Source: Verrucomicrobiota bacterium JB024 (lineage in GTDB: Bacteria > Verrucomicrobiota > Verrucomicrobiia > Opitutales > Cerasicoccaceae). Taken from it: DNA of 45,094 nt. The translations under genes were made by a program, and so were the position numbers. Positions 4,618 to 45,094 of the stretch are shown here, in pieces. Positions within the stretch are counted from its first letter, which is position 1. Each line of letters starts with the position of its first letter. Below the pieces are notes generated by a model. The model was given only the letters and a program-made list of their open reading frames with translations. It made no database searches and was not told where the DNA came from. The stretch spans positions 1 through 45,094 of the forward strand of contig JAUTCS010000098.1 in assembly GCA_030673825.1 (NCBI GenBank), read 5' to 3'.

Positions 4618-4620
4618 GGG

Positions 4621-6144
4621 TCAGGCGGGCTGGAGCGCGTCGAGGGTTTTAAGCACGATGGCCTCGTCCGGGCCGAGTGTCTCGCGCACTTTATACAGCG
4701 TGCGTGCGGTCGCGGCGTAGTCGGCCTCGCGCCCGGTGCGTAGGCGGTGCAGTTCGCGGATGTAGCGCACCGCGCGGTCGATGAGCTTGTTGTTGGAGGG
4801 CTTGACCCAGGTCATGAGGTTGCCCTCGTAGCGCCCGAGCCGCCCCATGACGAGCGTCGAGTGCGTGTTGAGCACGAGCTTGAGCAGCAGGTGGCGAAAG
4901 AGCAGGGGAGCGCCCGCCGTCGGCAGCATGTGCCCGAGCGAGCCGAGCTGGAACGTGATCCCCTCCGGCGCGGCCAGCAGCCGGAAGCGGTTAAACATCT
5001 CGCTCGCGCGGTGCAGGCGGGCGGCCTTGGAGATGTCGAAGCCCAGCAGCGTTTCAAGCCCGGCGACGGCGCGGCACTCCGCCCACTCCAGACAGCGCGG
5101 TTGGCGGCGCAGCAGCAGCTCCCAGGCGGCGGCGGAGTCGGCGGCTTGCGGCAGGCACAGGTAGCACAGGCTGGGCGGCTGGGCAGGGAGATGTGTGTTC
5201 TCGAAGGCGGGCTGGGAAAAGGTGGGGGCACGCTCGGTGGTGTCGGTCAGCACGGTGATGCCGTAGGCGTCAGTTTCGTAGAGCACCTGTTCGCCGTTGG
5301 TGTAGCGATCCGCCTCGGCGGCGGTGAAGGTTTCGATAAAGCCCCAGTCCGTCCCCATGGCCAGCGCGGTAAACTCCGCCAACGCCGCCTGGATTTTTTC
5401 CGGCGCGGCATGGTGCTCCAGGGCGAGCCCGGCGGCGAGCATCTGCACGGTGCTGGCCTGCATGCGGGTGCTTCCGGCCAGTGCCATCGGGCCGACCGTG
5501 AGGTTGAGTTTGCGGATGCCGGGGTTTCCCAGCACGCGGCGCGAACGCTCGGCCACGCGGGCCAGGACTGTATCCGGATTACAATACAGGAACCACGGCG
5601 CGCGTTTCGAGATAACGGCGGCGGCTTCGCACGCGCCGATGACGAACGGCGTCTCTCCGCCCTCGGTGATCGCGAGCAGCAGGTCGTTTTCGCCAAAGCC
5701 CAACTCACGTAACTGACGCTCTCCGTAGCCGGGAAAATCCTCGAAGCCCTCCAGCGAGCGGATGAGGGCAGCGTCGCCCCCGGCCATGAACCCGGTCACG
5801 CGCCCGGCCAGCTCTGGCGGCAGCATCCCCTCGCGGCTGAGTGTCTCCAGCGAAAGCGAGAGCCGCCCCGTCGCCCCGCAGCCGCACAGGTACACGCGTC
5901 CGCCCGCTGCGAAAGTCTCCCCGACGGCGGCGGCCAGCGCCGCGATGCCGTCCGCGTAGCCCGCGAGTTGTTCCAGAGCGAGCCGGTCCACTTCCTTGAG
6001 CGTGGCGATGGCTTGCGACAGGTCGTTCTGCGCCAGCTCGGAGAGCTTACGCGTAAGCGGGTGGGGCTGCTCGGTCACAAGCTCGCCCAGACGGAACTGA
6101 TCCGCCATCGACAAAAATTCCTCCGCATCGGCTGCCGTTTTCAT
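4621..6144 (-). CDS. Long MurQ / glucokinase-regulatory-protein-like SIS protein
   Basis: Sugar-phosphate-binding SIS protein related to N-acetylmuramic acid 6-phosphate etherase (MurQ). Seen in 507 residues: GCGATGR (88-94), AGGDA and LEGFED (121-136), TEGGETPFVIG (160-170) and GSTRMQA (224-230). The MurQ-like tail KLVLNTHSTLVMGRLGRYE appears only at 422-440, so about 190 residues are inserted where MurQ is continuous. This is the double-SIS layout of animal GKRP. The catalytic Glu that follows the first glycine loop in MurQ (in SEC) is not at its place; LSLSLETL is found instead. A regulator or altered enzyme is therefore as likely as an etherase. The ATG at 6144 (MKTAADAEEF) fits better than an upstream start at 6210, whose leader lies in repeat-bearing DNA. 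Confidence 0.8.
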   Translation of the reverse strand: MKTAADAEEFLSMADQFRLGELVTEQPHPLTRKLSELAQNDLSQAIATLKEVDRLALEQLAGYADGIAALAAAVGETFAAGGRVYLCGCGATGRLSLSLETLSREGMLPPELAGRVTGFMAGGDAALIRSLEGFEDFPGYGERQLRELGFGENDLLLAITEGGETPFVIGACEAAAVISKRAPWFLYCNPDTVLARVAERSRRVLGNPGIRKLNLTVGPMALAGSTRMQASTVQMLAAGLALEHHAAPEKIQAALAEFTALAMGTDWGFIETFTAAEADRYTNGEQVLYETDAYGITVLTDTTERAPTFSQPAFENTHLPAQPPSLCYLCLPQAADSAAAWELLLRRQPRCLEWAECRAVAGLETLLGFDISKAARLHRASEMFNRFRLLAAPEGITFQLGSLGHMLPTAGAPLLFRHLLLKLVLNTHSTLVMGRLGRYEGNLMTWVKPSNNKLIDRAVRYIRELHRLRTGREADYAATARTLYKVRETLGPDEAIVLKTLDALQPA

Positions 6145-6197
6145 ACTTGGATAAAACTGAATACCCCGGTTCCCGTGAAACAAGCAAATACAAGTTG

Positions 6198-6228
6198 CCC
6201 GCGAAGTCACGCGAAGAGACGCGAAGGG
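6198..6228. repeat. Word repeat, GCGAAG(N)CAC family, single copy
   Basis: Three 10-bp units beginning GCGAAG (6201, 6211, 6221) just upstream of the GKRP-like gene. The same family occurs as inverted pairs at 21.4 kb and 32.4-32.65 kb. I found no inverted mate here. Confidence 0.7.
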
Positions 6229-23907: not shown

Positions 23908-26466
<2,559 letters not shown>

Positions 26467-31418: not shown

Positions 31419-32396
31419 ATGGAAGGCTTGGAAACACAGTATGGGACGCTCACGGGGATTTCGAACTTCATGACCTACGCGGACGGGGCGTTGAAATCCT
31501 GCATGCTCAACGCCGAGAACCGGATCGCCACGCCGGTGGGGGACATCGTCCCGCAGTACCGGATGGCCGAGTTTGGGGAGCGGCAAAAGAAACATCGCAG
31601 CTCGCTGAGTTTTTATCCGGGCGGGCAGCTCAAGAGCGCTTCGCTGGATCGGGCGATGCCGCTGCGCACGCCGCTGGGCGAGTTCAAGGCCGAGTTCGTG
31701 ACCTTTTACGAGGACGGTTCGCTCAACCGCCTCTTCCCCCTCAACGGGCAGATCGACGGCTTCTGGTCGGAAAAGATGGAGGGCGAACTGGCCGAGGTGC
31801 TCGACTTCGACCTGCCGGTGGGCAGCTTCCGGGCGAAGATCATCAGCCTGCATTTTTATCCGGGAGGCGCGCTCAAGTCGCTCACCCTCTGGCCGGGCCA
31901 GCGCGTCACCATCGAGACCCCCGTCGGCCCCATGCGTATCCGCACAGGCTTCTCCCTGTACGAGGACGGCTCGGTCCGCTCGGTCGAGCCCTCCGGTCCC
32001 TTCGAGCTGGCCACCCCCATCGGGCTGGTCAAGGCCTTTGACGCAGAGGTGATGGGGATGAACGCCGACCAGAACTCTGTCCAGTTCAGCCCGGAGGGCA
32101 CGTTGCTGTCGGTCAAAACCGTCCACACGGGTATCCGGGCTATCGGCGCGGATCAGGTGGAGAAGCTGATCGAGCCGCTGGAGACGACCAGCCTGATCGA
32201 GATGACCTCCATGCGTACGGTGCCGATGCAGATCGACTTCGCCGGGAGCGCGGTGCGGGTGGTGGCTGCGCAAGAGCACGCCTTCGACCTGACTGCGCAC
32301 ACGCTGGAGACCTTCGAGCGTGCGCGGGTCATCCGCGAGTCCTGCGGCTCCTGCGCCGGTTGCGACGGCGGCGAGTCCTGTTGTCAAAACGGCTGA
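31419..32396 (+). CDS. MORN-like repeat protein with a C-terminal Cys-rich motif
   Basis: 325 residues, no signal peptide, no TM helix. Five or more repeats of about 40 residues with a core such as SLSFYPGGQLKS, TFYEDGSLNRLFPLNGQIDG, SLHFYPGGALKSLTLW, SLYEDGSVRSVEP, QFSPEGTLLS, each alternating with a TPVG/TPLG turn. The pattern resembles beta-hairpin MORN-type repeats. The last 20 residues hold a cluster CGSCAGCDGGESCC, a likely metal or Fe-S site. Function unknown. I recall similar proteins in anaerobes but cannot name a family. Upstream gap of 100 bp; downstream is a repeat-filled region. Confidence 0.75.
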   Translation: MEGLETQYGTLTGISNFMTYADGALKSCMLNAENRIATPVGDIVPQYRMAEFGERQKKHRSSLSFYPGGQLKSASLDRAMPLRTPLGEFKAEFVTFYEDGSLNRLFPLNGQIDGFWSEKMEGELAEVLDFDLPVGSFRAKIISLHFYPGGALKSLTLWPGQRVTIETPVGPMRIRTGFSLYEDGSVRSVEPSGPFELATPIGLVKAFDAEVMGMNADQNSVQFSPEGTLLSVKTVHTGIRAIGADQVEKLIEPLETTSLIEMTSMRTVPMQIDFAGSAVRVVAAQEHAFDLTAHTLETFERARVIRESCGSCAGCDGGESCCQNG

Positions 32397-32434
32397 GTTT
32401 TTAACAGGAAGACCGGAAGAACGAAAAACGTTTT

Positions 32435-32650
32435 GCCCGCGAAGCCACGCGAAGAAAACTCGAAGTTGAGAAGAATAGAGCGGTTTGAAATAGGCGTAGC
32501 CGGGAGATGGCTCTAGATTTATCCACAGATTCCACAGATACACACAGATTCTTACAGGCCTATCTGTGTGCATCTGTGGAATCTGTGGACACAATCTTTC
32601 TTAAAATTTTCTAGCGTTTGCTTCGCGCTCCTTCGCGTGGCTTCGCGGGC
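32435..32650. repeat. Nested inverted word repeats (GCGAAG outer, CACAGAT inner, TAGAGCGG between)
   Basis: Outer arms 32435-32454 (GCCCGCGAAGCCACGCGAAG) and 32631-32650, exact reverse complements, 20 of 20. Inner arms 32522-32549 and 32562-32589 pair in 27 of 28 bases. Between them, 32476-32501 carries one copy of the outer family of 27.85 kb, with its own TAGAGC/GCTCTA pair (32476-32481 with 32510-32515). The whole non-coding gap 32397-32658 is this composite. Confidence 0.9.
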
Positions 32651-32658
32651 AAATCTCT

Positions 32659-33534
32659 TTACCCGTTTTTCGGGTCGAGGGCGTCGCGCAGGCCGTCCCC
32701 GAGGAAATTTAAGGAAAACAGCGTGGCGGAGAAAAACAGGCTCGGGAAGATGAGCAACCAGGGGTACTCCTCCATGCTCTCGGCCCCGGCGCGGATGAGG
32801 TCGCCCCAGCTGGTTTGCGGCGGCTGAACGCCCAGCCCGAGGAAGCTGATAAAGGCCTCCAGCAGCATGACGCCGGGCACGGTCAGGGTGGCATAGACGA
32901 TGATCACACCCATGAGGTTGGGCAGGAGGTGCCGGGTCATGATGTTGAGCGGATGCTGGCCGAGGCTGCGCGAGGCCTGGATAAAGGCCATCTCTTTCAG
33001 CCCCAGGACCTGCCCGCGCACGATGCGGGCCATGGTCAGCCACTCGACCGCCCCGATGGCGACGAAGATCAGCCCCAGGTTCCTCCCAAAGTACACCATC
33101 AGGATGATGACAAAGACCGTGAAGGGCATCGAGTAGATGATCTCGACGAAGCGCATCATCAGTCGGTCGGTGCGCCCCCCGGCGTAGCCGGAGACGAGCC
33201 CGTAACTCACGCCGATCACCAGCGCCACCGTGGTGGCAAGCACGCCCACCAGCAGCGAGATGCGCCCGCCGCTGAGGATGCGGGCCAGCAAGTCGCGCCC
33301 GAGGACGTCCGTGCCCAGCCAGTGCGCGGCGCTCGGGCCGCTCGCCCCGAGGTCGAGATTTTGCGCTTCCGGGGCGTGGGGCAGCAGCCACGGCCCGACC
33401 ACGCAGGCCAGCGTGACCAGCACGGTAAAGACCAGCCCGCCCATGGCCATTCGGTTGGCGCGCAGGCGTCGCCAGGCGTCCGCTCCGAGCGAGCGGCCCG
33501 CCACGGGGGCGGCTTTTTCTCCGAAGGGCTTCAC
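32659..33534 (-). CDS. oppC: Oligopeptide ABC transporter permease OppC-like
   Basis: Inner-membrane permease of the peptide/nickel family, 291 residues. Seen: a first TM (VFTVLVTLACVVGPWLL), the extended N-terminal HWLGTDVLGRDLLARIL signature of OppC/DppC, and the coupling-loop EAA motif EMAFIQASRSLGQHPLNIMTRHLLPNL, then the last two TMs. Its ATG overlaps the end of oppB by 4 bp. Last gene of the run; the composite repeat follows. Confidence 0.93.
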   Translation of the reverse strand: MKPFGEKAAPVAGRSLGADAWRRLRANRMAMGGLVFTVLVTLACVVGPWLLPHAPEAQNLDLGASGPSAAHWLGTDVLGRDLLARILSGGRISLLVGVLATTVALVIGVSYGLVSGYAGGRTDRLMMRFVEIIYSMPFTVFVIILMVYFGRNLGLIFVAIGAVEWLTMARIVRGQVLGLKEMAFIQASRSLGQHPLNIMTRHLLPNLMGVIIVYATLTVPGVMLLEAFISFLGLGVQPPQTSWGDLIRAGAESMEEYPWLLIFPSLFFSATLFSLNFLGDGLRDALDPKNG

Positions 33535-34448
33535 GCGAGTTTCCTCCGGGGGTTGAGCCAGACCAGCAGGATGTCCGAGATCAGGTTAAAGACGATGATG
33601 AGCGCGGCGTAAAAGAGCACGCAGCCCAGAACCATGGTGTAGTCGTTGTCGAGCGCGGCCTGCACGAAGAACCGCCCCAGTCCGGGGATGTTAAAAATCG
33701 TCTCCACCACAAAGGAGCCGGTGATGAGCCCGGCCAGGGCGGGCCCCAGGTACGAGACCACGGGGGAGAGGCCGTTGCGCAGGCCGTGCAGCAGGTACAC
33801 GCGCGCCTCGGGCAGACCCTTGGCGCGGGCAGTGCGCATGTAATCCTCGCCGCGGATTTCCAGCATGCTTGAGCGCGTGAGCCGGGCGATGTAGGCGGCG
33901 TAAAAAAGCCCCAGCGTGAGCGCGGGCAGGATGCGGTCTTGCGGCAGGTTCCAGCCCATGACGTTGACGAGGTTCAGCTTCAGCCCGAAGACTAGGATGA
34001 GCAACGGCCCCAGCACGAAGGTCGGCAGGCAGATGCCGAGCATGGCCAGCGACATGGGAACGGTGTCGGTGGCGGAGCCGGGCCGCCAGGCGGCGAGCAC
34101 CCCCGCGCCTATGCCAAGAACCAGCGCGATGCCCATGGCCAGCGCCCCCAACTCGACGGATACGGGCAGCTTGCGGGCGATGATCTCGTTCACCGTCCAG
34201 CCGGGGTACTTGAAGGTCGTGCCCAGGTCGCCTTGAACGAGCCTGCCGAGGTAGTTGAGGTATTGTACGGGCAGGGGCTTGTCGAGCCCGTAGTAAGCCT
34301 CCAGTTGCTGGCGTGTGACTTCGGGGATGTCCTTTTCGCGGTCGAAGGGGCCGCCCGGCACCAGCCGCACCATGAAGAACGTGGCCGTCACGATGAGGAA
34401 GAGCACCAGCAGGGCTTCGAGAAAACGCCGGAGGACAAAGGTGAGCAT
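33531..34448 (-). CDS. oppB: Oligopeptide ABC transporter permease OppB-like
   Basis: 305 residues. N-terminal TM (LEALLVLFLIVTATFFMVRLVPGGPF), a periplasmic loop, and the conserved RLVQGDLGTTFKYPG, then five more TMs with EDYMRTARAKGLPEARVYLLHGL as the coupling motif. Normal length. It follows oppA by 12 bp; that gap is part of a GTTCTTG repeat. Confidence 0.93.
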   Translation of the reverse strand: MLTFVLRRFLEALLVLFLIVTATFFMVRLVPGGPFDREKDIPEVTRQQLEAYYGLDKPLPVQYLNYLGRLVQGDLGTTFKYPGWTVNEIIARKLPVSVELGALAMGIALVLGIGAGVLAAWRPGSATDTVPMSLAMLGICLPTFVLGPLLILVFGLKLNLVNVMGWNLPQDRILPALTLGLFYAAYIARLTRSSMLEIRGEDYMRTARAKGLPEARVYLLHGLRNGLSPVVSYLGPALAGLITGSFVVETIFNIPGLGRFFVQAALDNDYTMVLGCVLFYAALIIVFNLISDILLVWLNPRRKLA

Positions 34449-34455
34449 GGGGAAA

Positions 34456-34488
34456 CGTTCTTAGTTCTTGGTGCTTGGTTCTTGGTTG
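34456..34488. repeat. GTTCTTG/GTGCTTG tandem repeat at the oppA-oppB junction
   Basis: Units of 7 bp, GTTCTTA GTTCTTG GTGCTTG GTTCTTG. The repeat covers the oppA stop and its last nine codons, so it encodes NQEPSTKN, the C terminus of OppA. It is the same family as at 23842-23884. Confidence 0.85.
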
Positions 34489-36158
34489 GCTGGGTTGGGG
34501 CTCTGGGTGGGGGCGGGGGGCAACAGCCCGTCCACATGGCCCTCGTCGTCTGTATCCGTTTTCAAATACACGTACTTGTAAGGGTGAAGGTCGAGGATGT
34601 TCGGGGTCCAGCCCTTGACCTCGGGGCGTTTGAGGTAGATGCGCGTGTAGTAATAGAGCGGGACAATGGGCAACTCGTCGAGGAAGACCGCCTCGGCGCG
34701 GTGGAGGATGTCGAGGCGCTGCTGCGGGTCGCCCGCCTGCTCGGCGTCCTTGATCAGTTGGTCGAACGTGGCGTTGGCCCAGCCGGTGTGGTTGAGCCCC
34801 GAGTCGGAGGTCCACATGGTCAGAAAGGTGCCCGCGTCGTTGTAGTCGGCGATCCACCCGGCCCGGGCGATGTCGAACTCGCCGTTTTTGCGGCGGTTGA
34901 GGTACACGGGCCAGGATTGGTTAACCAGCTCGATGTCCACCCCGAGGTTGTCATGCCACATCTTTTGCAGGGCCTCGGCGATGGGACGGTGTGTCTCGGA
35001 GGTGTTGTATAAAAGCTCGACCTTGGGGAAGCCCTCCCCGCCGGGATAACCGGCCTCGGCCAGCAGCCGCCGGGCGAGCGCCACGTCTTCCCTGATCGGG
35101 CTGGGCGGGGTCTGATACCCGGTGGTGTAGGGGGGCACGATGGTGTCGGCCACCGGTTCGCCGCCGCGGGTGACGGTATCGACGAGCGCCTGGCGGTCGA
35201 TGGCGGCGTTGAAGGCGTGCCGCACGCGTACGTCGTCGAAAGGCGGTTTCCGGGCATTGAGCAGGTAAAAGTAGGTCGCCAGCCACGGGTCGATATGCAG
35301 GTCGGGCGAGTCGGCGTCGCGGTAGCCGTCGCGCTTGCTCAGGGGGACGGAGTCGGTGATGTGGAGCTGCCCGGAGCGGAAGGCCCGCTCTTCGGTGTTC
35401 TGGTTGGTGATGGGCAGGAAGGAGATGCCGTTGAGCCGCACGGTGTCCGCGTCCCAGTACTGCGGGTTCTTTTTCACGAAGACGCGCTCGTTGATGTTCC
35501 AGTCCGCCAGCACGAAGGGGCCGTTGGAGACCATATTGCCCGGCTTGGTCCAGCGGGTGTTGCGGTCGGTCATCTTCCCGTACTTGAGGATCGTGGCCGG
35601 GTGGACGGGAAAGGTGGCGTTGTGGCTGAGCAGGGTGGGCAGCTGCGGGGTCGGACCCTCCATCTCCAGTTGGAGCGTGTGCGCGTCGAGTGCCTTGACC
35701 CCGACCTGGGAAAAATCCGTGATCTCCCCGGCGTTAAAGGCGCGGGCGTTTTTGATCGGAAAGAGCAGGCTGGCGTACTCGGCGGCGAAGGCCGGGCTGA
35801 GGATGCGCTCGTAGGAAAAGACGAAGTCCTGCGCGGTCACGGGGTCGCCGTTGGACCAGCGGGCGTCGGGCCGAAGGGTGAAGGTGTAGGCGGTGTGGTC
35901 GGCGTTGTGGGTCCAGCTCTCCGCCACGCCGGGGGTGGGGGCGCAGGTCACCGGGTCGGTGGCGGTGAGGCCCTCGAAGAGCGCCGTGAGGATGTCGAAC
36001 TCCACCAGCCCCACCGTGATCTGAGGGTCGAGGTCGGCGGGGTCGGAGCCGTTGCCAATTATTATGATTCCCACCACGTCGGCCATTTCGACCCGGGTGC
36101 GGCGTGGGCCGCAGCCGGAGAGCAGCGCGAGGACGTGTATGGCGAGGAGGAACCGCAT
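34461..36158 (-). CDS. oppA: Oligopeptide-binding lipoprotein OppA-like
   Basis: 565 residues from the ATG at 36158 (MRFLLAIHVLALLSGCG, lipobox LLSGC). Substrate-binding protein family 5 (SBP_bac_5): DPQITVGLVEFDILTALFEG, FTLRPDARWSNGDPVTAQDF, VRHAFNAAIDRQALVDTVT, and AEAGYPGGEGFP. A longer reading to 36596 has no signal peptide and is antisense-like to DUF2126, so rejected. The C terminus PANQEPSTKN comes from a repeat. It starts 37 bp after the DUF2126 gene, so it is likely cotranscribed with it. Substrate may be a peptide made or changed by the upstream enzymes (inference). Confidence 0.93.
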   Translation of the reverse strand: MRFLLAIHVLALLSGCGPRRTRVEMADVVGIIIIGNGSDPADLDPQITVGLVEFDILTALFEGLTATDPVTCAPTPGVAESWTHNADHTAYTFTLRPDARWSNGDPVTAQDFVFSYERILSPAFAAEYASLLFPIKNARAFNAGEITDFSQVGVKALDAHTLQLEMEGPTPQLPTLLSHNATFPVHPATILKYGKMTDRNTRWTKPGNMVSNGPFVLADWNINERVFVKKNPQYWDADTVRLNGISFLPITNQNTEERAFRSGQLHITDSVPLSKRDGYRDADSPDLHIDPWLATYFYLLNARKPPFDDVRVRHAFNAAIDRQALVDTVTRGGEPVADTIVPPYTTGYQTPPSPIREDVALARRLLAEAGYPGGEGFPKVELLYNTSETHRPIAEALQKMWHDNLGVDIELVNQSWPVYLNRRKNGEFDIARAGWIADYNDAGTFLTMWTSDSGLNHTGWANATFDQLIKDAEQAGDPQQRLDILHRAEAVFLDELPIVPLYYYTRIYLKRPEVKGWTPNILDLHPYKYVYLKTDTDDEGHVDGLLPPAPTQSPNPANQEPSTKN

Positions 36159-36195
36159 CAATAGGCGACCATAAAAACGCCCCGGTGCGCCGGGG

Positions 36196-38304
36196 TCAAT
36201 GCGCGTGCCGCCGCAAATCGAGGGTAAATCGCATTTCCGGGAAAACCTGCGCGGGGCTGGGTTTTCTCCGGATGTCCTCCTCGGGCAGGACGCGCCAGCG
36301 GTCCTCGGAGCGGGAGCGGGCCTCGTCGAGGTCCTTGGGGCGTCCGTCGTAGATGGGGGCGCGGGGGTTCCAGTAGTAGTAAAAGGCGGCCGCATCGACC
36401 TTGCCGCCGCGACGCTTCGCCCACTGGAACAGCAGCGGGGCCTGGATCGGCACGTGCGGGTGCAGGGCGGGCCAGCCGCTGGCGCACTTGTAGCGCAGGC
36501 CGGCCACGGGCTTGCCGCCGACGAGCTGCCAGGGCACTTCCACGCCGTTGCACAGCAGCAGGTGGGTCTCCAGCAGGTTCTTGTCAGAGAGGGCAAGCTC
36601 TAGGCGGTCGGTCGAGTTGTCCACCATGCGTACGGTGGGGCCGCCGATGTTCTCCTCGGCCATGAGGGGCCAGGCTTCGAGCGCCTGGCGCACGGTGAGC
36701 GCGCCGCCCTTGCCGAGCGGGAGCTCCCCGCGCACGGGGAAGCGGAAGTCCAGCAGCGGGCGCAGCCACTCCAGCTTGAAGTCGAACCCGTGCGCCTTCA
36801 GGTCGCGGCAGCTTTTCTTCAAGTCGTCCCAAATCACGCCCGGCAGGAAGTACTTGTCGTGCAGCTCCGGGCCGAAGCGCCGCATCGGCTCGCGAAAGGG
36901 CTCCGCCGCCAGCCGGGCGATGATCGCGCGGATGAACAGCCCGGCCAGCCCGAGCATCTCCGCCGTCGGAAACACCTCGAAGGCCCGCAGCTCGATGATG
37001 CCGGTCTTGCCGTTGGGAGCGGCGTAGTTGTGGAACTTGTCCACGCAGATTTCGGCGCGGTGGGTGTTGCCGCTGGAGTCGGTCAAGAGGTTGCGCAGCA
37101 GCCGGTCCATCTGCTCGGGATCGGGGCAGGATTTCTCCAGCGCCTCGCAGGCCAGCTCCAGCTCGTAGGCGGCGTGGGTTCCACTCTCGTCGATGCGAGG
37201 GGCCTGGCAGCCCGTGCCCACGTACTGCCCGGTAAAGAAGTACCCCAGCGCCGGGTGGTGCTGCCAGTAGCGCAGGATGGACGCCAGCAGCGCCGGATCG
37301 CGGTGAAAGGGGTTGCGCTCCTCGTCGGGGCCGCCGAAGCACAGGTGCGAACCCCCGCCGGTAGCCTGGATGGCGCCGTTGAGGTGGAGCTTGATCGCCC
37401 GCAGGCCGACGGCCTCGGCGGTGGCGTACATCTGGTCCAGGCAGCGCTGGTAGGTGGCCCAGTCCGGGCAGGGGGGCAGGTTGGCCTCCAGCACGCCGGG
37501 GTCGGCGGCGAGGGAGAACTTCTCCACCGTCGGGCCGCAGCCCGAGGGCGCGTACCCACAAAAGACCAGCTCGCGCAGGTCCTGCTTGTCCACGTGGGCG
37601 TAAATGATCGCGGTCAGCTCACGGAAGGGCTCCCACTCCAGCGGCGGGAAGAACACCTCCAGTGCTCCGTGGCGGACCTCGACGGTGAGGGCGCGCTTGA
37701 GCGTCTTTTCCGGCAGCTCGGAGAGGGGCAGGCGCAGTCCGGCGGGACTGTCCCCGGGGATGAGCTTGACCGGCTGGCGCGAGTTGTAGGGCCACTGGTC
37801 GGACATCCACTTGCCCTTTTTCCCCTCCTCGTGGTCGAGGGGGAGCACCCAGGCAGCGGTCTTGCGCTCGCCCTGCTCGGCGGCGGGTATGAGGTACTCG
37901 CTCAGGCCGAGACCGGCGGCGAGGGCCTTGGCCAGGGAGCGGGCCGCCTCGGGTTCGTTGTGGCCGGGCTTGTCGTCGAGCAGGAGGCGTTCCGGCGCGG
38001 GCCACAGGGCGGGACCGGTGCTGGGGTGGAGGGTGAGCATGTTCCAGCGCGGCAAGGGCTCGCCCGGATACCACTTGCCAAAAACCTGCATGGCGAGACC
38101 GCCGGGATAAGCGATCTTGAGCAGCTCGCGGGTGAAGCGGCGGGCGTAGCCGAGCTTTTCCTCGCCCATGGCGGCGTTGTTCCATTCGGGCGCGTCGGGC
38201 TGGAGGGGAACAAACGTCGGCTCCCCGCCCATAGTCAGGTGAATATTCCGTTCGGCCAAAAAGGTTTCGACGGCGGCGGCGAGGGATGCTGGCGTTGGTT
38301 TCAT
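36196..38304 (-). CDS. DUF2126 protein (transglutaminase-associated)
   Basis: 702 residues from the ATG at 38304 (MKPTPASLAAAVETFLAERN). In many genomes this domain is the C-terminal half of a 1100-residue protein with a transglutaminase N-terminal half; here it is a separate gene. Seen: LTMGGEPTFV at the N terminus, HLNGAIQATGGGSHLCFGG, LGYFFTGQYVGTGCQAPRID, and DKFHNY...GIIELRAFE. The His/Asn/Gly-rich motif and the later Glu-rich strand have been compared with glutamine-synthetase-fold carboxylate-amine ligases in comparative-genomic work (recollection). The ATG overlaps the stop of the transglutaminase gene by 4 bp. Biochemical function not established. Confidence 0.85.
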   Translation of the reverse strand: MKPTPASLAAAVETFLAERNIHLTMGGEPTFVPLQPDAPEWNNAAMGEEKLGYARRFTRELLKIAYPGGLAMQVFGKWYPGEPLPRWNMLTLHPSTGPALWPAPERLLLDDKPGHNEPEAARSLAKALAAGLGLSEYLIPAAEQGERKTAAWVLPLDHEEGKKGKWMSDQWPYNSRQPVKLIPGDSPAGLRLPLSELPEKTLKRALTVEVRHGALEVFFPPLEWEPFRELTAIIYAHVDKQDLRELVFCGYAPSGCGPTVEKFSLAADPGVLEANLPPCPDWATYQRCLDQMYATAEAVGLRAIKLHLNGAIQATGGGSHLCFGGPDEERNPFHRDPALLASILRYWQHHPALGYFFTGQYVGTGCQAPRIDESGTHAAYELELACEALEKSCPDPEQMDRLLRNLLTDSSGNTHRAEICVDKFHNYAAPNGKTGIIELRAFEVFPTAEMLGLAGLFIRAIIARLAAEPFREPMRRFGPELHDKYFLPGVIWDDLKKSCRDLKAHGFDFKLEWLRPLLDFRFPVRGELPLGKGGALTVRQALEAWPLMAEENIGGPTVRMVDNSTDRLELALSDKNLLETHLLLCNGVEVPWQLVGGKPVAGLRYKCASGWPALHPHVPIQAPLLFQWAKRRGGKVDAAAFYYYWNPRAPIYDGRPKDLDEARSRSEDRWRVLPEEDIRRKPSPAQVFPEMRFTLDLRRHAH

Positions 38305-39194
38305 GGGATTTCGCGGATGTTGAGTTCGACCTCCATGTGCGAGCCCACCGGCTCGTCGTGAAAATAGCGCCCCTGGATGGGGTTGACCCACGAGGGATCG
38401 CTGGAGACGGCGGTGGGGATGAAATAGTGGTTGGCGAGGATGCCGTTGGTCGGGTCAAAGCCCTTCCAACCCGCGCCCGGCAGGTAAATCTCGACCCAGG
38501 CGTGCATGGAGCCCCGGGCACGGTTAAAGGAGTGGTCCTCCTCGCCCTCGGCGGGGGGCGGATCGTAGAGGTAGCCGCTGACGAAGCGCGCGGCCAGCCC
38601 GAGCTGGCGGCACAGGGCGATCATGAGCACGGCCATGTCCCGGCACGAGCCCGAGCGCAGCTCCAGTGTCTCGTCCGGGGTCTGGATGCCCATCTCGTCG
38701 CGCCGTTGGTAGCTGATGTCGTTAAAGATGGCGACGTTGATCTCGGAGAGGAAAGTGACGATGTTGTCCGAGCGGATGGGGTTCTCGACCGCGCCGTAGA
38801 ACCAGTCCAGCACGCGGTTGGCGCCGGGGCCCACGCCCTCGCGCAGGTACGCCCCGAGTGCTTGCCGCTCGTGCGGGTGGTAGCGCATGGGGTAGGCCAT
38901 GGCGTGCGGGTCGAGGATGAAGTCGAACGGGTTCTCAATGCGCAGGCGCACCTGGATGTTTGCCGTGAACTCCAGCCGTTCGGAAATGGCGAGGCCGAAG
39001 TCCGTGCGCACCACCACGTTCTCGAAGCAGTCGCGCACCCACCGGGTGGTGACCGCCGGGTACGCCTCCAGCTTGAAGTCCTGCGCGCGTACGACCTGGT
39101 TCTCCCGAGGATAGAGGAAGAGCTGGTGCGCGCCAAAGCTCACCGGCTGGTCGTAGCGGTAGCGGCTGATGTGTTCGATTTCGACCTGGATCAT
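38301..39194 (-). CDS. Transglutaminase-like cysteine protein (first copy)
   Basis: 297 residues. N-terminal beta-domain (IEHISRYRYDQPVSFGAHQL, Bact_transglu_N) then a transglutaminase core with the triad: Cys in GSCRDMAVLM, His in MHAWVEIYLPG, Asp in GFDPTNG. It is a soluble protein with no signal. This family hydrolyses or crosslinks amide bonds. It follows the second transglutaminase by 5 bp and overlaps DUF2126 by 4 bp. Presence of an intact triad suggests an active enzyme. Confidence 0.93.
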   Translation of the reverse strand: MIQVEIEHISRYRYDQPVSFGAHQLFLYPRENQVVRAQDFKLEAYPAVTTRWVRDCFENVVVRTDFGLAISERLEFTANIQVRLRIENPFDFILDPHAMAYPMRYHPHERQALGAYLREGVGPGANRVLDWFYGAVENPIRSDNIVTFLSEINVAIFNDISYQRRDEMGIQTPDETLELRSGSCRDMAVLMIALCRQLGLAARFVSGYLYDPPPAEGEEDHSFNRARGSMHAWVEIYLPGAGWKGFDPTNGILANHYFIPTAVSSDPSWVNPIQGRYFHDEPVGSHMEVELNIREIP

Positions 39195-39199
39195 GGGCT

Positions 39200-40087
39200 T
39201 TACCGGGTGGAGGCGGTTTTGCGCGGGCGGCGGCGCTTGAGGGTGACGATGACCTGGAGCCGCTGGTCCTGCGCTCCCTTGTAGGCACCCCGCATGGGGG
39301 CCACATCGTTGTAGTCGCGCCCGGAGGCCACGCGCACGTGCCGCAGGCCGGCGGCCTGGTTGTTGGTCGGGTCGAGCCCGTACCAGTATCCGCCGGGCAG
39401 GTACACCTCGACCCAGGCGTGGCTGGCGGCGGCGCCGGTCATCTCCTGGCCGGGCTTGGTCGGGTCGTAGGGCTCGATGTAGCCGCTGACGTAGCGGGCC
39501 GGGATGCCCTGCATCCGCAGGACGGCCAGCATGAGGTGTGCGAAGTCCTGGCAGACGCCCTGATGGGTTTCCAGCACGGTGGGCAGCGGCGTGCCGATGT
39601 CCGTACTGCCGGGCGAGTAGGCGAAGTTTTTATAGATCCAGGTGTTGAGTCCGTGAACGGCCTCGCCGAGGGTTTCGGCGTCGCGGAAGCGCGGGAGGGA
39701 CTCCTCGTTCTGGATGCGGTGAAAGGGCACCAGCTCGGTGTTCTGGATGAAGTCAAAGATGCCGATGGGCTGGCTGGCGAGGATTTGGCGGGCATCGCCC
39801 ACCGGGGTCTCCAGCACGTGGGTCAGGTCGGGGCCCTCGCGGGTCTCCACCTCGCCCACGGCGTTGACGGAGAGCTCGCTGTGGCGGAAGGGGATGGAGA
39901 AGTACTCTACCTTGTTGCCAAAATAGTCCGTGTAGTGGTCCACCGGGACGGCCGGCGAAATCTCCAGCTTGTGGCTGAGGATTTTCTGGGTCGGGCCGTT
40001 CTGGGGCCACACGCGCAGCTCCGCGTAGGACTCCGAGGCCGGGGTCTTGTAGCGGTAGCGGGTGGTATGGGTGACCTTGAAGCGCAT
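39200..40087 (-). CDS. Transglutaminase-like cysteine protein (second copy)
   Basis: 295 residues from the ATG at 40087 (MRFKVTHTTRYRYKTPASES). Same architecture as the neighbour: beta N-domain, Cys in GVCQDFAHLML, His in SHAWVEVYLPG, Asp in GLDPTNN, then a C-terminal RRRPRKTAS tail. The two copies are clearly diverged, so this is an old duplication, not a repeat. The ATG shares its first base with the stop of the upstream gene (TAATG), a strong coupling signal. An earlier in-frame start is antisense-like to the upstream gene and rejected. Confidence 0.93.
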   Translation of the reverse strand: MRFKVTHTTRYRYKTPASESYAELRVWPQNGPTQKILSHKLEISPAVPVDHYTDYFGNKVEYFSIPFRHSELSVNAVGEVETREGPDLTHVLETPVGDARQILASQPIGIFDFIQNTELVPFHRIQNEESLPRFRDAETLGEAVHGLNTWIYKNFAYSPGSTDIGTPLPTVLETHQGVCQDFAHLMLAVLRMQGIPARYVSGYIEPYDPTKPGQEMTGAAASHAWVEVYLPGGYWYGLDPTNNQAAGLRHVRVASGRDYNDVAPMRGAYKGAQDQRLQVIVTLKRRRPRKTASTR

Positions 40088-42657
40088 TATTCGTCGGGCT
40101 GCCAGTCCAGGGGGAGCTGGCGGTCGGGATAGAACTCTGTCTGGTGGCTGAAGAAGGTGTCTTCGAGCCGCTCGTGTAGCAATTCCAGTTCCCGAGTGAG
40201 AGATTCGAGGATAAATTTCATTTCCGGGCGCGGGGCGGCGGCACTTTCCTGCACGCCGTGGTCGAGTTCGCGCACGGAGGAGGGCATGAGGCGCTGAAGG
40301 GGCAGGCTCTCGACCCTGGCGATAATCTTGTCCACCGTTTCGTCGAGCGTGGTCGGGGCGTTCACCCGGTCGGTGACGGAGAGGGTGCCGATGGCGTAGC
40401 GCAGCTGGCGCAGGCAGTGACTGACCGAGCTGGGGTTGCAGGCGTTCTGGAGGAGGAGGTTGACCACCCGCTCCAGGTACGCGCGCGAGCGGAACTCCCG
40501 ACGGTAGGCGTCCAGCGAGGTGAGCAGACGTAGCAGGGAGGTCAGGTCGGCCTCGTCGTTGTTGCCCTCGGCGCGGTTGGCCATGACCCAGGAGAGCACC
40601 TCGCGCACGACGGTGGCCGTGCCCTGCGCCCGCTCGACAAAGGAGCCGATGCGGAAGAACTGCCAGGAGTCGTCGTGGAGCATGGTGCGGTCGGCGGTCC
40701 CGGCGAGGCGGGCCGCATCGTCCACGATGCGCTGGCAGATCTCGCGCAGGCGGGTGCGGGAGGTCTTCGGCTGGCGGGCGGCATCCTGCAAAAACCAGTA
40801 AAACTCGCTCAGGACCTGCCAGACCTCGGGGCTGATGGAGTCGCGGATGTGCTGCGCGCCCATGTAGGCGGCGGTGGCGCTGGAAAGGATGGAGGCCGGT
40901 TCGTTCGCCTGAAGCACGAGCGCTCGGGTGAGCGAGAGCGTGTCCTTCGGCGGGCTCTTGCGCTTCGACCAGCCGGACTGGCCGTTGGCGGCGGCAACGG
41001 CCTTCCACAGCGGCCAGTAGCTGCGCTGGGCGGCGCGTCCCAACTGGTCCCAACGGAGGGTTTCGAGGATGTTGAGCTGGCGGGCGGTGTTCTGCATCCG
41101 CTCCAGGTAGCGGCCCGTCCAGTAAAGCCCCTCGGCCAGCCGCGAGCTGATCGAGTACTCGTCCGGGTTGAGCGTGACCGTGCCCGGCGTGGAGGCGTAC
41201 TCGAAGGGCTGGGCCGGGACCCAGGTATCCTTCATCCCCTCGGACATGATGGTCAGCGGATTGTCGCGGTGGCTGCCCCAGCTCTGGCGGGTGAGGCCGC
41301 CGGGCAGCACGGAAGGCTTTTCCCCGAGTTGGAAAAACACCCGCAGGTACACGCTGTGCGACTTGAACCCGTCGCTGGCGTAGCAGGGCAGCTGCGAGGG
41401 GTGCAGGTAAGGCTGCGCCACGAACAGGTGCGGCCACTTGCGGGCCAGGCGTATGAGGTGGCTGCGCTTTTCGGGCAACTGCTTGCCGCCCAGGTAGCGG
41501 AAAAGGGTGTAGCTGTCCTGGATGGGCTTGAGGACCATCTCGTCCTTGTTCGAGAGGATGTAGTCGAACTGGTCCCGGTCCCCGCAGTTGAAGGTCGGGA
41601 CGGAGTCGAGGATGGCGTGCTCTTGCAGGTAAAAGCCGATCAGTTGTCGCGAAAAGCGCAGCAGGGCGCGGTTGTCGGCCACGCCGCAGCCCAGGGCGTT
41701 GACGAAGCGCACCGTGCCGTTGCGCACGCAGTTGACGATGCCGGGGATGCCCGGCAGGCCGCTCTCGGCGAAGGCGATGGGGTCGATGGCCGCGCTGGCC
41801 AGCCGCCGGTAAATCACGTCCACCTGTTCCAGCCCGCGGATGGTCTTGAGGAAGACTTTGCCCTCGCGGATGAGCAGGTCCGCCGGGCGCACCATGGCGA
41901 TCCCCAGTTGGCGGGCGAGGAAGCTTTCGTCGAAGTACGCCTGGTTCGTCTCCCCGCGGGTGAGCAGGACGATGTGCGGGTTGGATTGGCCGGAGGCGGC
42001 GCGGAGGTTTTCCGAAAACTGCGTGATGAACGGCGCCACCGGGCTGATGTCCATCGACTGGAACAGCTCCGGAAAGGCCTGCGCGAGCATCCGCCGGTTC
42101 TGCATGACGAAGGACAGCCCGAAGGACGTTGCCATGTGGTTCTCCAGCACGCGCCACATCCCGTCCTCGCCGCGCACGAGGTCAAAGGCCCCGATGTGGC
42201 AATACTCGCCGCCGGGCACCTCGACCGTGGTCAGCGGGCGCTGGAAGGCCGGGTCCCCGAGGGCGACGCCGTGGGGGAGGGCGCGCTGGCGCAGGATGTC
42301 CTGCCCGCCGTGCATGTCGCGGATAAAGGCGTCGAAGGCGCGGGCACGCTGGAGGATGCCCTTGCGCAGCAGCTCCCACTCGTCGCGGGGGATGATGCGC
42401 GGCAGCACGTCCAGCCGCCAGTCAGCCTCGCGGGGCTTGCCCTCCTCGACGACGCCGAAGTGGATCCCCACGTCGCGGGCCGAGCGCTCCAGCCGGTCCT
42501 GGCGCTCGTGCAGCTCCACCGGGCTGAGCGACTCGATGATCTCCAATACCGGCGCGTAGGGCGAAGCCTCGCCAGCGGCGGGATGGGTGAGCTCATCGCG
42601 CGGGCTGTTGGCGGCCTTGAAGTGGGCGTATTTGCGTTTCTTGCGGGCGGCGGTCAT
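40087..42657 (-). CDS. Circularly permuted type-2 ATP-grasp / alpha-E fusion protein
   Basis: 856 residues. Residues about 60-480: circularly permuted ATP-grasp (DUF404/DUF407 type), with GVALGDPAFQRPLTTVEV, DLVRGEDGMWRVLENHM, RGETNQAYFDESFLARQLG and DEMVLKPIQDSYTLFRYLGG. Residues about 500-820: alpha-E domain (DUF403), all-helical, SRLAEGLYWTGRYLERMQNTAR and ARVESLPLQRL. In many bacteria these are two genes; here they are one. The ATP-grasp half should make an amide or peptide-like bond; alpha-E is its usual partner. First gene of the seven-gene run; its start lies 160 bp from the divergent ketopantoate-reductase-like gene. Confidence 0.92.
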   Translation of the reverse strand: MTAARKKRKYAHFKAANSPRDELTHPAAGEASPYAPVLEIIESLSPVELHERQDRLERSARDVGIHFGVVEEGKPREADWRLDVLPRIIPRDEWELLRKGILQRARAFDAFIRDMHGGQDILRQRALPHGVALGDPAFQRPLTTVEVPGGEYCHIGAFDLVRGEDGMWRVLENHMATSFGLSFVMQNRRMLAQAFPELFQSMDISPVAPFITQFSENLRAASGQSNPHIVLLTRGETNQAYFDESFLARQLGIAMVRPADLLIREGKVFLKTIRGLEQVDVIYRRLASAAIDPIAFAESGLPGIPGIVNCVRNGTVRFVNALGCGVADNRALLRFSRQLIGFYLQEHAILDSVPTFNCGDRDQFDYILSNKDEMVLKPIQDSYTLFRYLGGKQLPEKRSHLIRLARKWPHLFVAQPYLHPSQLPCYASDGFKSHSVYLRVFFQLGEKPSVLPGGLTRQSWGSHRDNPLTIMSEGMKDTWVPAQPFEYASTPGTVTLNPDEYSISSRLAEGLYWTGRYLERMQNTARQLNILETLRWDQLGRAAQRSYWPLWKAVAAANGQSGWSKRKSPPKDTLSLTRALVLQANEPASILSSATAAYMGAQHIRDSISPEVWQVLSEFYWFLQDAARQPKTSRTRLREICQRIVDDAARLAGTADRTMLHDDSWQFFRIGSFVERAQGTATVVREVLSWVMANRAEGNNDEADLTSLLRLLTSLDAYRREFRSRAYLERVVNLLLQNACNPSSVSHCLRQLRYAIGTLSVTDRVNAPTTLDETVDKIIARVESLPLQRLMPSSVRELDHGVQESAAAPRPEMKFILESLTRELELLHERLEDTFFSHQTEFYPDRQLPLDWQPDE

Positions 42658-42818
42658 GCGTCCGGGACAGGGAGAATGGCCGACTATTGTTTGCCCCCCG
42701 CCGCCTTATTCAACCCAGAATTGAGGATAATTTCCGTCCGGCTATCCTTGAGGCGTTCCGTTCGGGGTTTTTGCCAAGTTGGTTTGCCCGCGACGGGTTT
42801 TCGCGTAGAGCGTTAATC
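42658..42818. promoter_or_regulatory. Divergent promoter region, ATP-grasp run / PanE-like gene
   Basis: 161 bp, GC-rich with an AT-richer core at about 42710-42760. Both genes must start here. I see no strong -35/-10 pair or palindrome. Confidence 0.35.
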
Positions 42819-43757
42819 ATGACCGGGACATCCACCATCTATGTCGTGGGCGCTGGCTCTATTGGGATGCCGCTGGCCGCTCTGCTGTCAGCTCGCGGGG
42901 CGTCCGTCGTCGCGGTCCGCACGAGCCGGGAAGGCATTGCCTCCACCATCGTCGAGCCCACGGTCGAGTTGGCCGACTGGCAGGCGATCACGGCCCGCGT
43001 GGAGATGGTCTCACTTTCGGAGCTGGAAAACATGGACGGCGGGATCGTGGCTCTCACTGCCAAGGCTACCGCCAACGCCGCCATCGCCCAAAAGCTCAAG
43101 CGCCTCTCCCCGGAGCTCCCGCTCGTACTCATGCAAAACGGTGTCCATGTGGAGCGGGCCTTCCTCGACGCCGGGTTCACGAACCTGTACCGTTGCGTCC
43201 TCTACGCCACAGGCCAGCCCGCATCGGACGGCGAGGGCTACCGCTTCCGCGAGGTCGCCAAGTCGCCCATCGGGGCCGTCAACGGCGACCCTGACACCGC
43301 CCGCGCCCTTGCCGCGCAATTGACGACTCCCGGCTTCCGCTTCCGCTACGAGGCCGACATCGAGCGGCAGGTCTGGAAAAAAGCCATCGTCAACGCCGCC
43401 TTCAACTCGATCTGCCCGCTGGCCAACATCGATAACGGCGTCTTCCATCGCGACCCCACGCTGGCCGCGATGGCGGAAACGATCCTCGCCGAGGCAGGCG
43501 AAGTGGCGGAGCGATTGGGGATTACGTTCGCCCCGGGCGAACTCATGGAGCAGCTCCTGCTCATCAGCCGTCGCGCCGACGGCCAGCTCATTTCCACCTT
43601 GCAGGATCTTAACCACGGCAAGGAGACCGAGATCGAGTTCCTGAACCTGGAAATAGCCCGTGTCGGCACTTCCCTGACCCCGCCGGTCGATACCCCCGTC
43701 ACCCGCACGCTGGGCGAACTGATCGCCGCCCGCTCCAGGCAGACACGGGGCGCGTAG
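42819..43757 (+). CDS. Ketopantoate reductase family protein (PanE/ApbA)
   Basis: 312 residues from the ATG at 42819 (MTGTSTIYVVGAGSIGMPLA). NADPH Rossmann motif GAGSIGMPLAALLSARG; middle signature ALTAKATANAAIAQKL; NGVH(V); and the catalytic region WKKAIVNAAFNSICPLANIDNG, with the Lys and Asn that bind ketopantoate in PanE. A conventional role in pantothenate synthesis is possible; the family also has other 2-keto-acid reductases. No panB/panC neighbours. It interrupts the two halves of the opp genes on the opposite strand. Confidence 0.85.
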   Translation: MTGTSTIYVVGAGSIGMPLAALLSARGASVVAVRTSREGIASTIVEPTVELADWQAITARVEMVSLSELENMDGGIVALTAKATANAAIAQKLKRLSPELPLVLMQNGVHVERAFLDAGFTNLYRCVLYATGQPASDGEGYRFREVAKSPIGAVNGDPDTARALAAQLTTPGFRFRYEADIERQVWKKAIVNAAFNSICPLANIDNGVFHRDPTLAAMAETILAEAGEVAERLGITFAPGELMEQLLLISRRADGQLISTLQDLNHGKETEIEFLNLEIARVGTSLTPPVDTPVTRTLGELIAARSRQTRGA

Positions 43758-43763
43758 GGAGTC

Positions 43764-43960
43764 TTTGGCCACAGAGAGCACTGAGAATGAAGAAGGAAAG
43801 ACTTTTTTAACCACGGATAACACGGATGGCACAGATAAGGATCTCCTATCCGAGCTATTCGTGGTTGAAGATTGAATAATCCAAACCGCCAAGAAGGGGT
43901 GTTGCAGGGGAGAAACAACTCTGTGCGCTCTGTGTTCCTCCGTGCTCTCTGTGGCCCAAA
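43764..43960. repeat. Nested inverted word repeats (CACAGAGAGCAC outer, CACGGAT inner)
   Basis: Outer arms: TTTGGCCACAGAGAGCACTG from 43764 and its imperfect inverse at 43937-43960. Inner arms: AACCACGGATAACACGGAT (43809-43829) and its inverse at 43845-43866. The gap 43758-43965 lies between convergent genes and could stop transcription from both sides. Confidence 0.8.
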
Positions 43961-43965
43961 ATGTC

Positions 43966-44781
43966 CTAAAACTTCGGCACGGCGGCGAGGAGCTTTTTCG
44001 TGTAGTCGGACTGCGGGTTCGCGTAGATGTCCTCGGCGCTGGCCTGCTCGACGATCTGCCCGCCGGTCATGACAAGCACGTCGTCGCTGATGTGCTCGAC
44101 CACGGCCAGGTCGTGCGCGATAAAGAGGTATGTCAGCCCCAGCTCCTCCTGGAGGTCTTGCAGCAGGTTGATGATCTGGGCCTGGATCGACACGTCGAGC
44201 GCACTCACCGGCTCGTCGCAGATGATGAACTCCGGCTCCACGGCGAGGGCGCGGGCGATGCCGATGCGCTGACGCTGTCCGCCGGAAAACTCGTGCGGGT
44301 AGCGGTCCATCTGATCGGCGGTCAGTCCGACGCGCTCCAGTAGCTGCGCCACGCGCTCGCGCCGGGCGATCTTGCTCAAAAAAGGAAAGTGGATGTCCAG
44401 CGGCTCGGCCACGATCTGAAAGATCGTCATGCGCGGGTTGAGCGAGTTAAACGGGTCCTGAAAGACCATCTGCATTCGCTTGCGGAAGGGGAAAAACTCG
44501 CTCTCGGACAGCTCCGTCAGCTCCACGCCTTCGAAGCGGATCGACCCCGCCGTGACGGGCGCGAGCCGGATGAGCGAGCGGCCGATGGTGGTCTTGCCGC
44601 TGCCGGACTCGCCGACGAGCCCGGTCGTCTTGCCCTTGCGGCAGGTGAACGACACCCCGTCCACCGCCCGCACATGATCAGTCACGCGGCGCATCAGCCC
44701 GCTGTGCACCGGGTAGTGCACTTTCAGGTCGGTCACTTCGAGGAGGGGCGCGATGACAGGCGGTTTGATTTCAGCGTTCAC
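43966..44781 (-). CDS. oppF: Oligopeptide ABC transporter ATPase OppF-like
   Basis: 271 residues. ATPase with Walker [11 protein letters not shown]-loop [12 protein letters not shown], signature [15 protein letters not shown], Walker [13 protein letters not shown] and H-loop AHDLAVV. The C-terminal oligopeptide-specific zone is short (family minimum), ending AAVPKF. Together with OppD it powers OppBC. Separated from the other opp genes by 7.8 kb and 107 bp from oppD; the gap carries word repeats. Confidence 0.95.
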
Positions 44782-44889: not shown

Positions 44890-45094
44890 AAAGCGCCGCG
44901 TAGTCGATCGTCGTGAGGCGGCGTTCGTGCGCGCCGAGGCGGGGGATGCAGGCGATGAGGGCCTTGGTGTAGGGGTGCTGCGCGTGGCGCAAAACCTCTT
45001 CCGACGGGCCGTCCACGACGATCTCGCCACGGCACATCACGATCACCCTGTCGGAGAAACAGGACACGATACAGAAGTTGTGCTTGATAAGGAT
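44888..45094 (-). CDS. oppD: Oligopeptide ABC transporter ATPase OppD-like, C-terminal end
   Basis: Partial: only the last 68 codons and the stop are inside the window, continuing past 45094. The end HPYTKALIACIPRLGAHERR matches the OppD/DppD C-terminal oligopeptide domain. The region just after the H-loop reads ILIKHNFCIVSC, where most relatives have the pattern ITHDLGVVAE-like, and VMCRGEIVV follows. The His stays, but several changed positions and two Cys are unusual. This may be real or an error near a contig end. Confidence 0.8.
   Translation of the reverse strand: MLIKHNFCIVSCFSDRVIVMCRGEIVVDGPSEEVLRHAQHPYTKALIACIPRLGAHERRLTTIDYAAL

Follow-up and report, generated by a model that had tools for sequence, protein, structure and literature searches.

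The window analysed here, a stretch of 45,094 bp that makes up one entire contig of the 4.6-Mb draft genome (163 contigs) of Verrucomicrobiota bacterium JB024, contains a run of seven open reading frames on one (minus) strand, from position 42657 to 32659, in which four genes for putative amide-chemistry enzymes lead into genes of an oligopeptide (Opp) transporter. The layout and the spacings of the genes (-1, 5, -4, 37, 12 and -4 bp, recomputed from the start and stop codons) are the same as in the first-pass annotation, which had been made from the letters of the stretch. Its domain assignments, namely ATP-grasp/alpha-E, two transglutaminase-like proteins (TG1 and TG2), DUF2126, OppA, OppB and OppC, are upheld by Pfam (Table 1).

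Table 1. Features of the seven-gene run and its surroundings in the window (aa, amino acids; G054 is another genome of the same genus)
Feature	Coordinates	Strand	Basis
Circularly permuted ATP-grasp ligase fused to alpha-E, 856 aa	40087..42657	-	Pfam PF14403, PF04174, PF04168
Transglutaminase-like protein 1 (TG1), 295 aa, Cys179-His223-Asp239 motifs	39200..40087	-	PF08379+PF01841
Transglutaminase-like protein 2 (TG2), 297 aa, Cys184-His231-Asp247 motifs	38301..39194	-	PF08379+PF01841
DUF2126 putative amidoligase, predicted glutamine-synthetase fold, 702 aa	36196..38304	-	PF09899, AlphaFold2 model
OppA-type binding protein, lipoprotein-like start, 565 aa	34461..36158	-	PF00496 (SBP_bac_5)
OppB permease	33531..34448	-	PF00528+PF19300 (BPD_transp_1, BPD_transp_1_N)
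OppC permease	32659..33534	-	PF00528+PF12911 (BPD_transp_1, OppC_N)
Terminator-like hairpin in DUF2126-oppA gap, perfect 6 G-C pairs then five T	36180..36195	-	Terminator scan
Tentative promoter element (-35-like TTGAAT, 16 nt, -10-like AACAAT) upstream of ATP-grasp gene	42685..42714	-	Comparison of genus genomes
Ketopantoate-reductase-like gene between oppF and ATP-grasp gene	42819..43757	+	ApbA_C (Pfam)
OppF ATPase, upstream of the run	43966..44781	-	Pfam, NCBIfam; G054 counterpart adjoins ATP-grasp gene (gap 82 bp)
oppD-like frame, C-terminal part, cut at contig end	44888..45094	-	Open frame

Enzymes and binding protein of the run

The first protein of the run scores 385.7 bits with CP_ATPgrasp_2 and 199.9 bits with Alpha-E, far above the Pfam cut-offs, and the closest solved structure to its ATP-grasp part is 3n6x (residues 37-480, E 1.8e-81). 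Its AlphaFold model is poor, with a predicted local distance difference test (pLDDT) value of 56.3, and was set aside. Both TG1 and TG2 contain a Bact_transglu_N and a Transglut_core domain. Across the 15 loci searched, the GVCQD, HAW and DPTN motifs of TG1 are found in all 14 relatives matched; the Cys motif of TG2 (GSCRD or GTCRD) and its HAW motif are likewise found in 14/14, and its DPTN motif in 12/14. By family and motifs, both proteins are assigned to the transglutaminase-fold enzymes with Cys-His-Asp motifs.

The DUF2126 protein scores 583.4 bits with its Pfam family, and a sequence search against solved structures returns a chance-level match only (E 0.21). Its AlphaFold2 model (mean pLDDT 81.9, predicted template modelling score 0.85) points to a glutamine synthetase-like fold. 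In Foldseek, one match alone falls under E 0.001, to a glutamine synthetase (9e-4), and the glutamine synthetase matches from this search are weak when taken by themselves. The VIA-align comparison is the stronger evidence for the predicted fold: among the matches listed, 50 of 50 belong to glutamine synthetases or to near relatives of these, GmaS among them, with Z of 10.0-11.4 and root-mean-square deviations of 3.2-4.8 over 199-295 residues. Such a predicted fold supports the Pfam label 'putative amidoligase' and no particular reaction.

The first description of the domain partition as unusual is not supported locally, since an ATP-grasp/alpha-E fusion with DUF2126 separate from transglutaminase is a common form among the open frames of the order. 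The other form, in which frames of ~1,100-1,450 aa have a TG2 match directly upstream, is probably a transglutaminase-DUF2126 fusion, to judge by frame length.

The closest solved relatives of OppA in a sequence search are oligopeptide-binding proteins. Its N-terminal region leads into LLSGC, a lipoprotein-like start, and its D438 is aligned with D419 of Salmonella OppA, the residue that binds the N-terminus of the peptide. The N-termini of the four enzymes, judged by eye, show no signal-peptide-like stretch. For the permeases, the best NCBIfam match is OppB in one case and OppC in the other, both under the NCBIfam cut-offs. The oligopeptide importer components found comprise a family 5 binding protein, OppB, OppC and OppF, together with oppD (as a cut frame here and on contig C96 of the same genome); with the NCBIfam equivalog cut-offs unreached, family membership does not fix the exact substrate class of the importer.

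Linkage to opp genes in the genus, the family and the order

In the genus, represented by this genome (G000), G020, G039 and G054, the order ATP-grasp/alpha-E, TG1, TG2, DUF2126, oppA, oppB, oppC is kept in 4/4 genomes, with adjacent genes spaced -4 to 104 bp; DUF2126 and oppA are separated by exactly 37 bp in three of the four and by 81 bp in G039. In G054, a single strand carries a second binding protein gene (SBP2), fused oppBC, oppD, oppF, ATP-grasp, TG1, TG2, DUF2126, oppA, oppB and oppC. As oppD and oppF adjoin the run there, the enzymes sit between the ATPase genes and the binding-protein and permease genes. G020 and G039 have their oppDF locus at another place.

With an oppF gene and a cut oppD-like frame upstream in the window, the transporter extends beyond the seven-gene run. 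In this genome, two matches reach E 1e-40, namely this oppF and the oppD of contig C96. At the same threshold, a single oppDF-type pair is present in G054, G039 and G000, where it is split over two contigs, and two pairs are present in G020; hence, OppABC probably shares the single pair of the genome. The ketopantoate-reductase-like gene between oppF and the run stands outside the run and is missing from the corresponding place in G054, where the oppF-ATP-grasp gap is only 82 bp. The final 145 bp of the window (44950-45094) are 90% identical to the oppD region that heads C96, and on C96 oppD is followed by fused oppBC and then a second binding protein. Because the contig end and the head of C96 are not identical, the same upstream arrangement is only probable in this genome. 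The mismatch itself may mean that the draft genome mixes strains or holds a second copy. The joining of OppB- and OppC-type permease domains in a single frame beside a second binding protein is seen in this bacterial family at L088 (5469-8081 (-)) and at L099-L102.

A short promoter-like element precedes the ATP-grasp gene in all four genus genomes, with its TTG and A-AAT columns kept in 4/4, and lies within the oppF gap in G054; the run may therefore have its own transcription start. A sigma-70 consensus scan found none, the tentative element being below its threshold.

Beyond the genus, the earlier expectation that the linkage is kept in relatives holds in part: it stands in the genus, and 6 of the 10 family genomes show at least one opp junction, leaving 4/10 that do not. 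In G094, of another genus and with no DUF2126 match, SBP2-oppBC-oppD-oppF is followed within ~75 bp (by match) by ATP-grasp/alpha-E, and the SBP2-oppF-ATP-grasp stretch has no transglutaminase match. In G129, of a third genus (g4), the order is TG2-DUF2126-oppA, with a gap of 82 bp, an oppA 54% identical to the one here and the ATP-grasp gene on another contig. The two genomes pair as sisters in the oppA tree and in the ATP-grasp tree alike, and each retains a different end of the arrangement that is whole in G054. We infer, as the simplest account, that the common ancestor of G094, G129 and this genus had the whole arrangement. The oppF-linked ATP-grasp proteins do not form a single clade (4 changes on the tree).

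The order was sampled with 223 genomes from 83 genera. A DUF2126 match is present in 41/223 genomes, and an ATP-grasp match at E 1e-60 in 84/223 genomes and 42/83 genera. In nine of these 42 ATP-grasp-bearing genera, which fall in four families (f1, f2, f14 and f18), an ATP-grasp gene has an opp gene less than 2 kb away, in several layouts. The script cut-off for this count was 6.5 kb, and the nearest distance is under 2 kb in all nine genera; the count covers at least one region per ATP-grasp-bearing genus, not every match, some regions are cut by contig ends, and it carries a selection bias, as nine genomes (G050, G060, G086, G108, G114, G121, G126, G171 and G204) were taken in after nearby opp coordinates had been seen or were visible. 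Uniform placement, with one representative genome per genus and ignoring shared descent, would give 0.71 genera for the 2-kb distance and 1.45 for the 6.5-kb one. The genus of G129 is outside the nine, its link being DUF2126-oppA. DUF2126 is followed directly by oppA in 5 of the 38 DUF2126-bearing genomes examined, which consist of 35 (the window and 34 genomes) plus G011, G118 and G195, of the 41 in total.

The layouts differ among families. In G017 (f18), oppD-oppF-ATP-grasp are contiguous at 37 bp by match. In f2 (genera g5 and g47), oppABCDF faces the ATP-grasp-transglutaminase genes in 6/6 genomes fetched, five of which were picked after the closeness had been seen. In f14 (g42, g65, g67 and g76), oppA precedes the ATP-grasp gene by 760-840 bp (by match); the frames between and after the two comprise two without a family, two HhH-GPD DNA glycosylases and one FAD oxidoreductase, which give no clue to function. 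At four f14 loci from four genera (L132, L154, L158 and L161), oppA stands before the ATP-grasp and alpha-E genes with no other opp match in the fetched stretch.

The DUF2126 protein of the gammaproteobacterium Aliiglaciecola lipolytica (L019, 9977-12106), which has TG2 before it, is 54% identical to the one here, against 34% for that of a Pseudomonadales locus (L014), which would fit a possible horizontal transfer.

Proposed peptide import followed by processing, and the alternatives

The linkage is more than a local accident, and the recurring pairing in some relatives suggests that the enzymes act on peptides taken up from outside. Our preferred, still tentative, reading is that this locus couples peptide import to amide chemistry in the cytoplasm, where the imported peptides would be processed, most likely as a nitrogen source. 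OppA, on the outer face, would catch an oligopeptide, and OppB and OppC with the OppD and OppF of the genome would carry it into the cell. There, the ATP-grasp/alpha-E and DUF2126 proteins could make amide bonds at the expense of ATP, for instance by placing glutamate or another amine onto the peptide or by linking fragments to one another; the pair of cysteine enzymes with a transglutaminase fold could cleave or transfer amides. An otherwise unusable peptide, such as an isopeptide-linked one, would thereby become usable, most likely for nitrogen. This reading is favoured because the enzymes show no signal peptide by eye, OppA has a lipoprotein-like start, no exporter lies within or beside the run and related sets are, in print, regulated by nitrogen; of the two readings first offered, import followed by modification thus gains ground, and recovery of a self-made peptide loses it.

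In Pseudomonas putida, growth on nitrate versus ammonium raises PP_2688 (ATP-grasp) by log2 3.99 and PP_2685 (Anbu) by 4.44 (PMC8050072). In a Burkholderia ntrC mutant, BCAM1233-1236 are down 6.0- to 9.4-fold (PMC5491218), and in metagenomes DUF403/404/407 and Bact_transglu_N associate with urea-metabolism domains (PMC3597751). Sigma-54 sites were set aside as support for nitrogen regulation, as they occur in 4/22 upstream regions (0/9 in the genus) where ~2 are expected (background 22 per 90,188 positions).

Several observations weigh against the import-and-processing reading. A search for sigma-54 sites with at least eight matches, in ~350 bp before nine starts of the four genus genomes, found none, although rpoN is present and a degenerate site would escape; the nitrogen link is therefore borrowed from distant bacteria. 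Expression of the P. putida operon is described as unchanged under several other conditions (PMC5666114). The only activity found reported for related proteins is the release of phosphate from ATP, by the ATP-grasp protein of a related operon (PMC6376114). The linkage is also patchy: 33 of the 42 genera have no opp gene near the fetched ATP-grasp genes; in genus g2, all four genomes carry the enzyme set, and no opp gene adjoins it in the stretches fetched; and the DUF2126 loci of named genomes, some of them cut by contig ends, have an adjacent opp gene in 1/16 (L004). Outside the order, 19 of 20 loci (from 18 of 34 matching genomes) are without an opp gene in the fetched stretch, the sole exception being L183, where an oppF-like gene and the ATP-grasp gene point away from each other. 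Within the run, the hairpin in the DUF2126-oppA gap would be a candidate for a transcript end between the enzyme genes and oppA. It heads the list of terminator-like sites in 32300-43000, where no other site has six G-C pairs. This interval holds 15 terminator-like sites, against 7.2 on average (sd 2.7) in shuffles. The 66-nt stretch there folds no more stably than shuffled sequences do (z 0.23), and G020 and G054 show no terminator-like hairpin around the same 37-bp gap.

The hairpin and the unlinked g2 genomes would also suit an account by history only, in which the enzyme set was inserted into a once-contiguous oppDF-oppA locus, and inertia or shared expression, not chemistry, keeps both together in the genus. 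In G004, which is of another family and gives no match to ATP-grasp at E 1e-60, oppD, oppF and oppA are contiguous in this order, so that the enzyme set could be an insert, and this layout suggests the site where it entered. This account is nonetheless less likely than the preferred reading, as other families have opp genes near ATP-grasp genes of different subtypes and in differing layouts (f2, and f14 with oppA before ATP-grasp in four genera).

A second alternative, of low probability, is that the four enzymes produce a modified peptide that the cell sends out and later takes back through OppA, as a signal or a siderophore-like compound. Opp systems can import self-made peptides and ligases are usually biosynthetic, which would fit. 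However, no exporter or regulator is found among the Pfam-annotated genes of the run or of its G054 counterpart, and no exporter adjoins the run (an RND efflux set lies ~15 kb away; no search for small precursor-peptide genes was made); the published nitrogen control of related sets, as excerpted, suits scavenging better. The recycling of murein peptides, with Opp bringing in cell-wall peptides that the enzymes re-ligate or trim, is improbable: OppA also matches the murein-peptide-binding MppA (E about 1e-99), and the same contig carries a SIS-domain protein and a GH20 gene at 2941-6210, but OppA chains outscore MppA (378 vs 338 bits), these two genes are 26 kb distant, and no murein-ligase or LD-carboxypeptidase family is found among the proteins scanned in 31419-44781.

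Within the import-and-processing reading, a more specific and rather doubtful form is that the set is a catabolic 'ligate to break down' pathway and not one of peptide synthesis. The glutamine synthetase-fold ligase would tag isopeptide- or gamma-linked imports in the way that enzymes of the GmaS type attach glutamate to amines, and the transglutaminase-fold amidases would open them, releasing nitrogen; if so, the Opp link in this order would show the substrate side of such a pathway. More generally, related sets are nitrogen-regulated in the two bacteria with data, and the excerpted literature offers no accepted substrate. That the set recurs beside a peptide importer gives a clue from the substrate side, which indicates the compounds to supply and those to watch for, and allows the role of the enzyme set to be tested by growth on peptides and metabolite comparison.

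Neighbouring genes and closest known systems

Two further features of the window stand apart from the run. At 31419-32396 (+), a 325-aa protein with no Pfam match has a cysteine-rich C-terminus (CGSCAGCDGGESCC). At 23908-26466 (-), COX1 and FixO domains lie within a single 852-aa frame, so that subunits of a cbb3 oxidase are apparently fused.

The enzyme set and this kind of transporter are each already known; their recurrent, partly conserved linkage in one order appears to be new. The excerpts surveyed do not name an opp link of this enzyme set, which is a statement about those excerpts and not about all that is in print. The rlo operon (PMC12239564) was set aside as a relative, since its ATP-grasp protein is likened to RimK and its transglutaminase is inactive, according to the excerpt.

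The Anbu operon likewise holds ATP-grasp, alpha-E and transglutaminase-like genes in one run (PMC6376114, PMC5666114). Here, in contrast, DUF2126 and a second transglutaminase-like gene are present, ATP-grasp and alpha-E are fused, and oppABC follows; no Anbu or proteasome-family match is found among the ten proteins scanned in 31419-44781, the rest of the genome not having been searched for Anbu. The Burkholderia genes BCAM1233-1236 (DUF404/407, DUF403, transglutaminase-like and large transglutaminase-like) encode the same families consecutively and are NtrC-dependent (PMC5491218). They differ in that alpha-E is separate there, and the large protein is perhaps a transglutaminase-DUF2126 fusion, to judge from its name only.

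The glutamine synthetase-like amide ligases of amine use, GmaS and 1-naphthylamine glutamine synthetase, resemble DUF2126 in predicted fold, and Foldseek lists YbdK and 1-naphthylamine glutamine synthetase too. Their identity to DUF2126 in structural alignments is ~9-17%. Finally, the OppABCDF importer is matched here by the OppA, OppB and OppC families, with OppF and an oppD-like frame nearby, and the distinguishing feature of the present locus is that enzyme genes stand between oppF and oppA, as in G054, with one more gene added in this genome.

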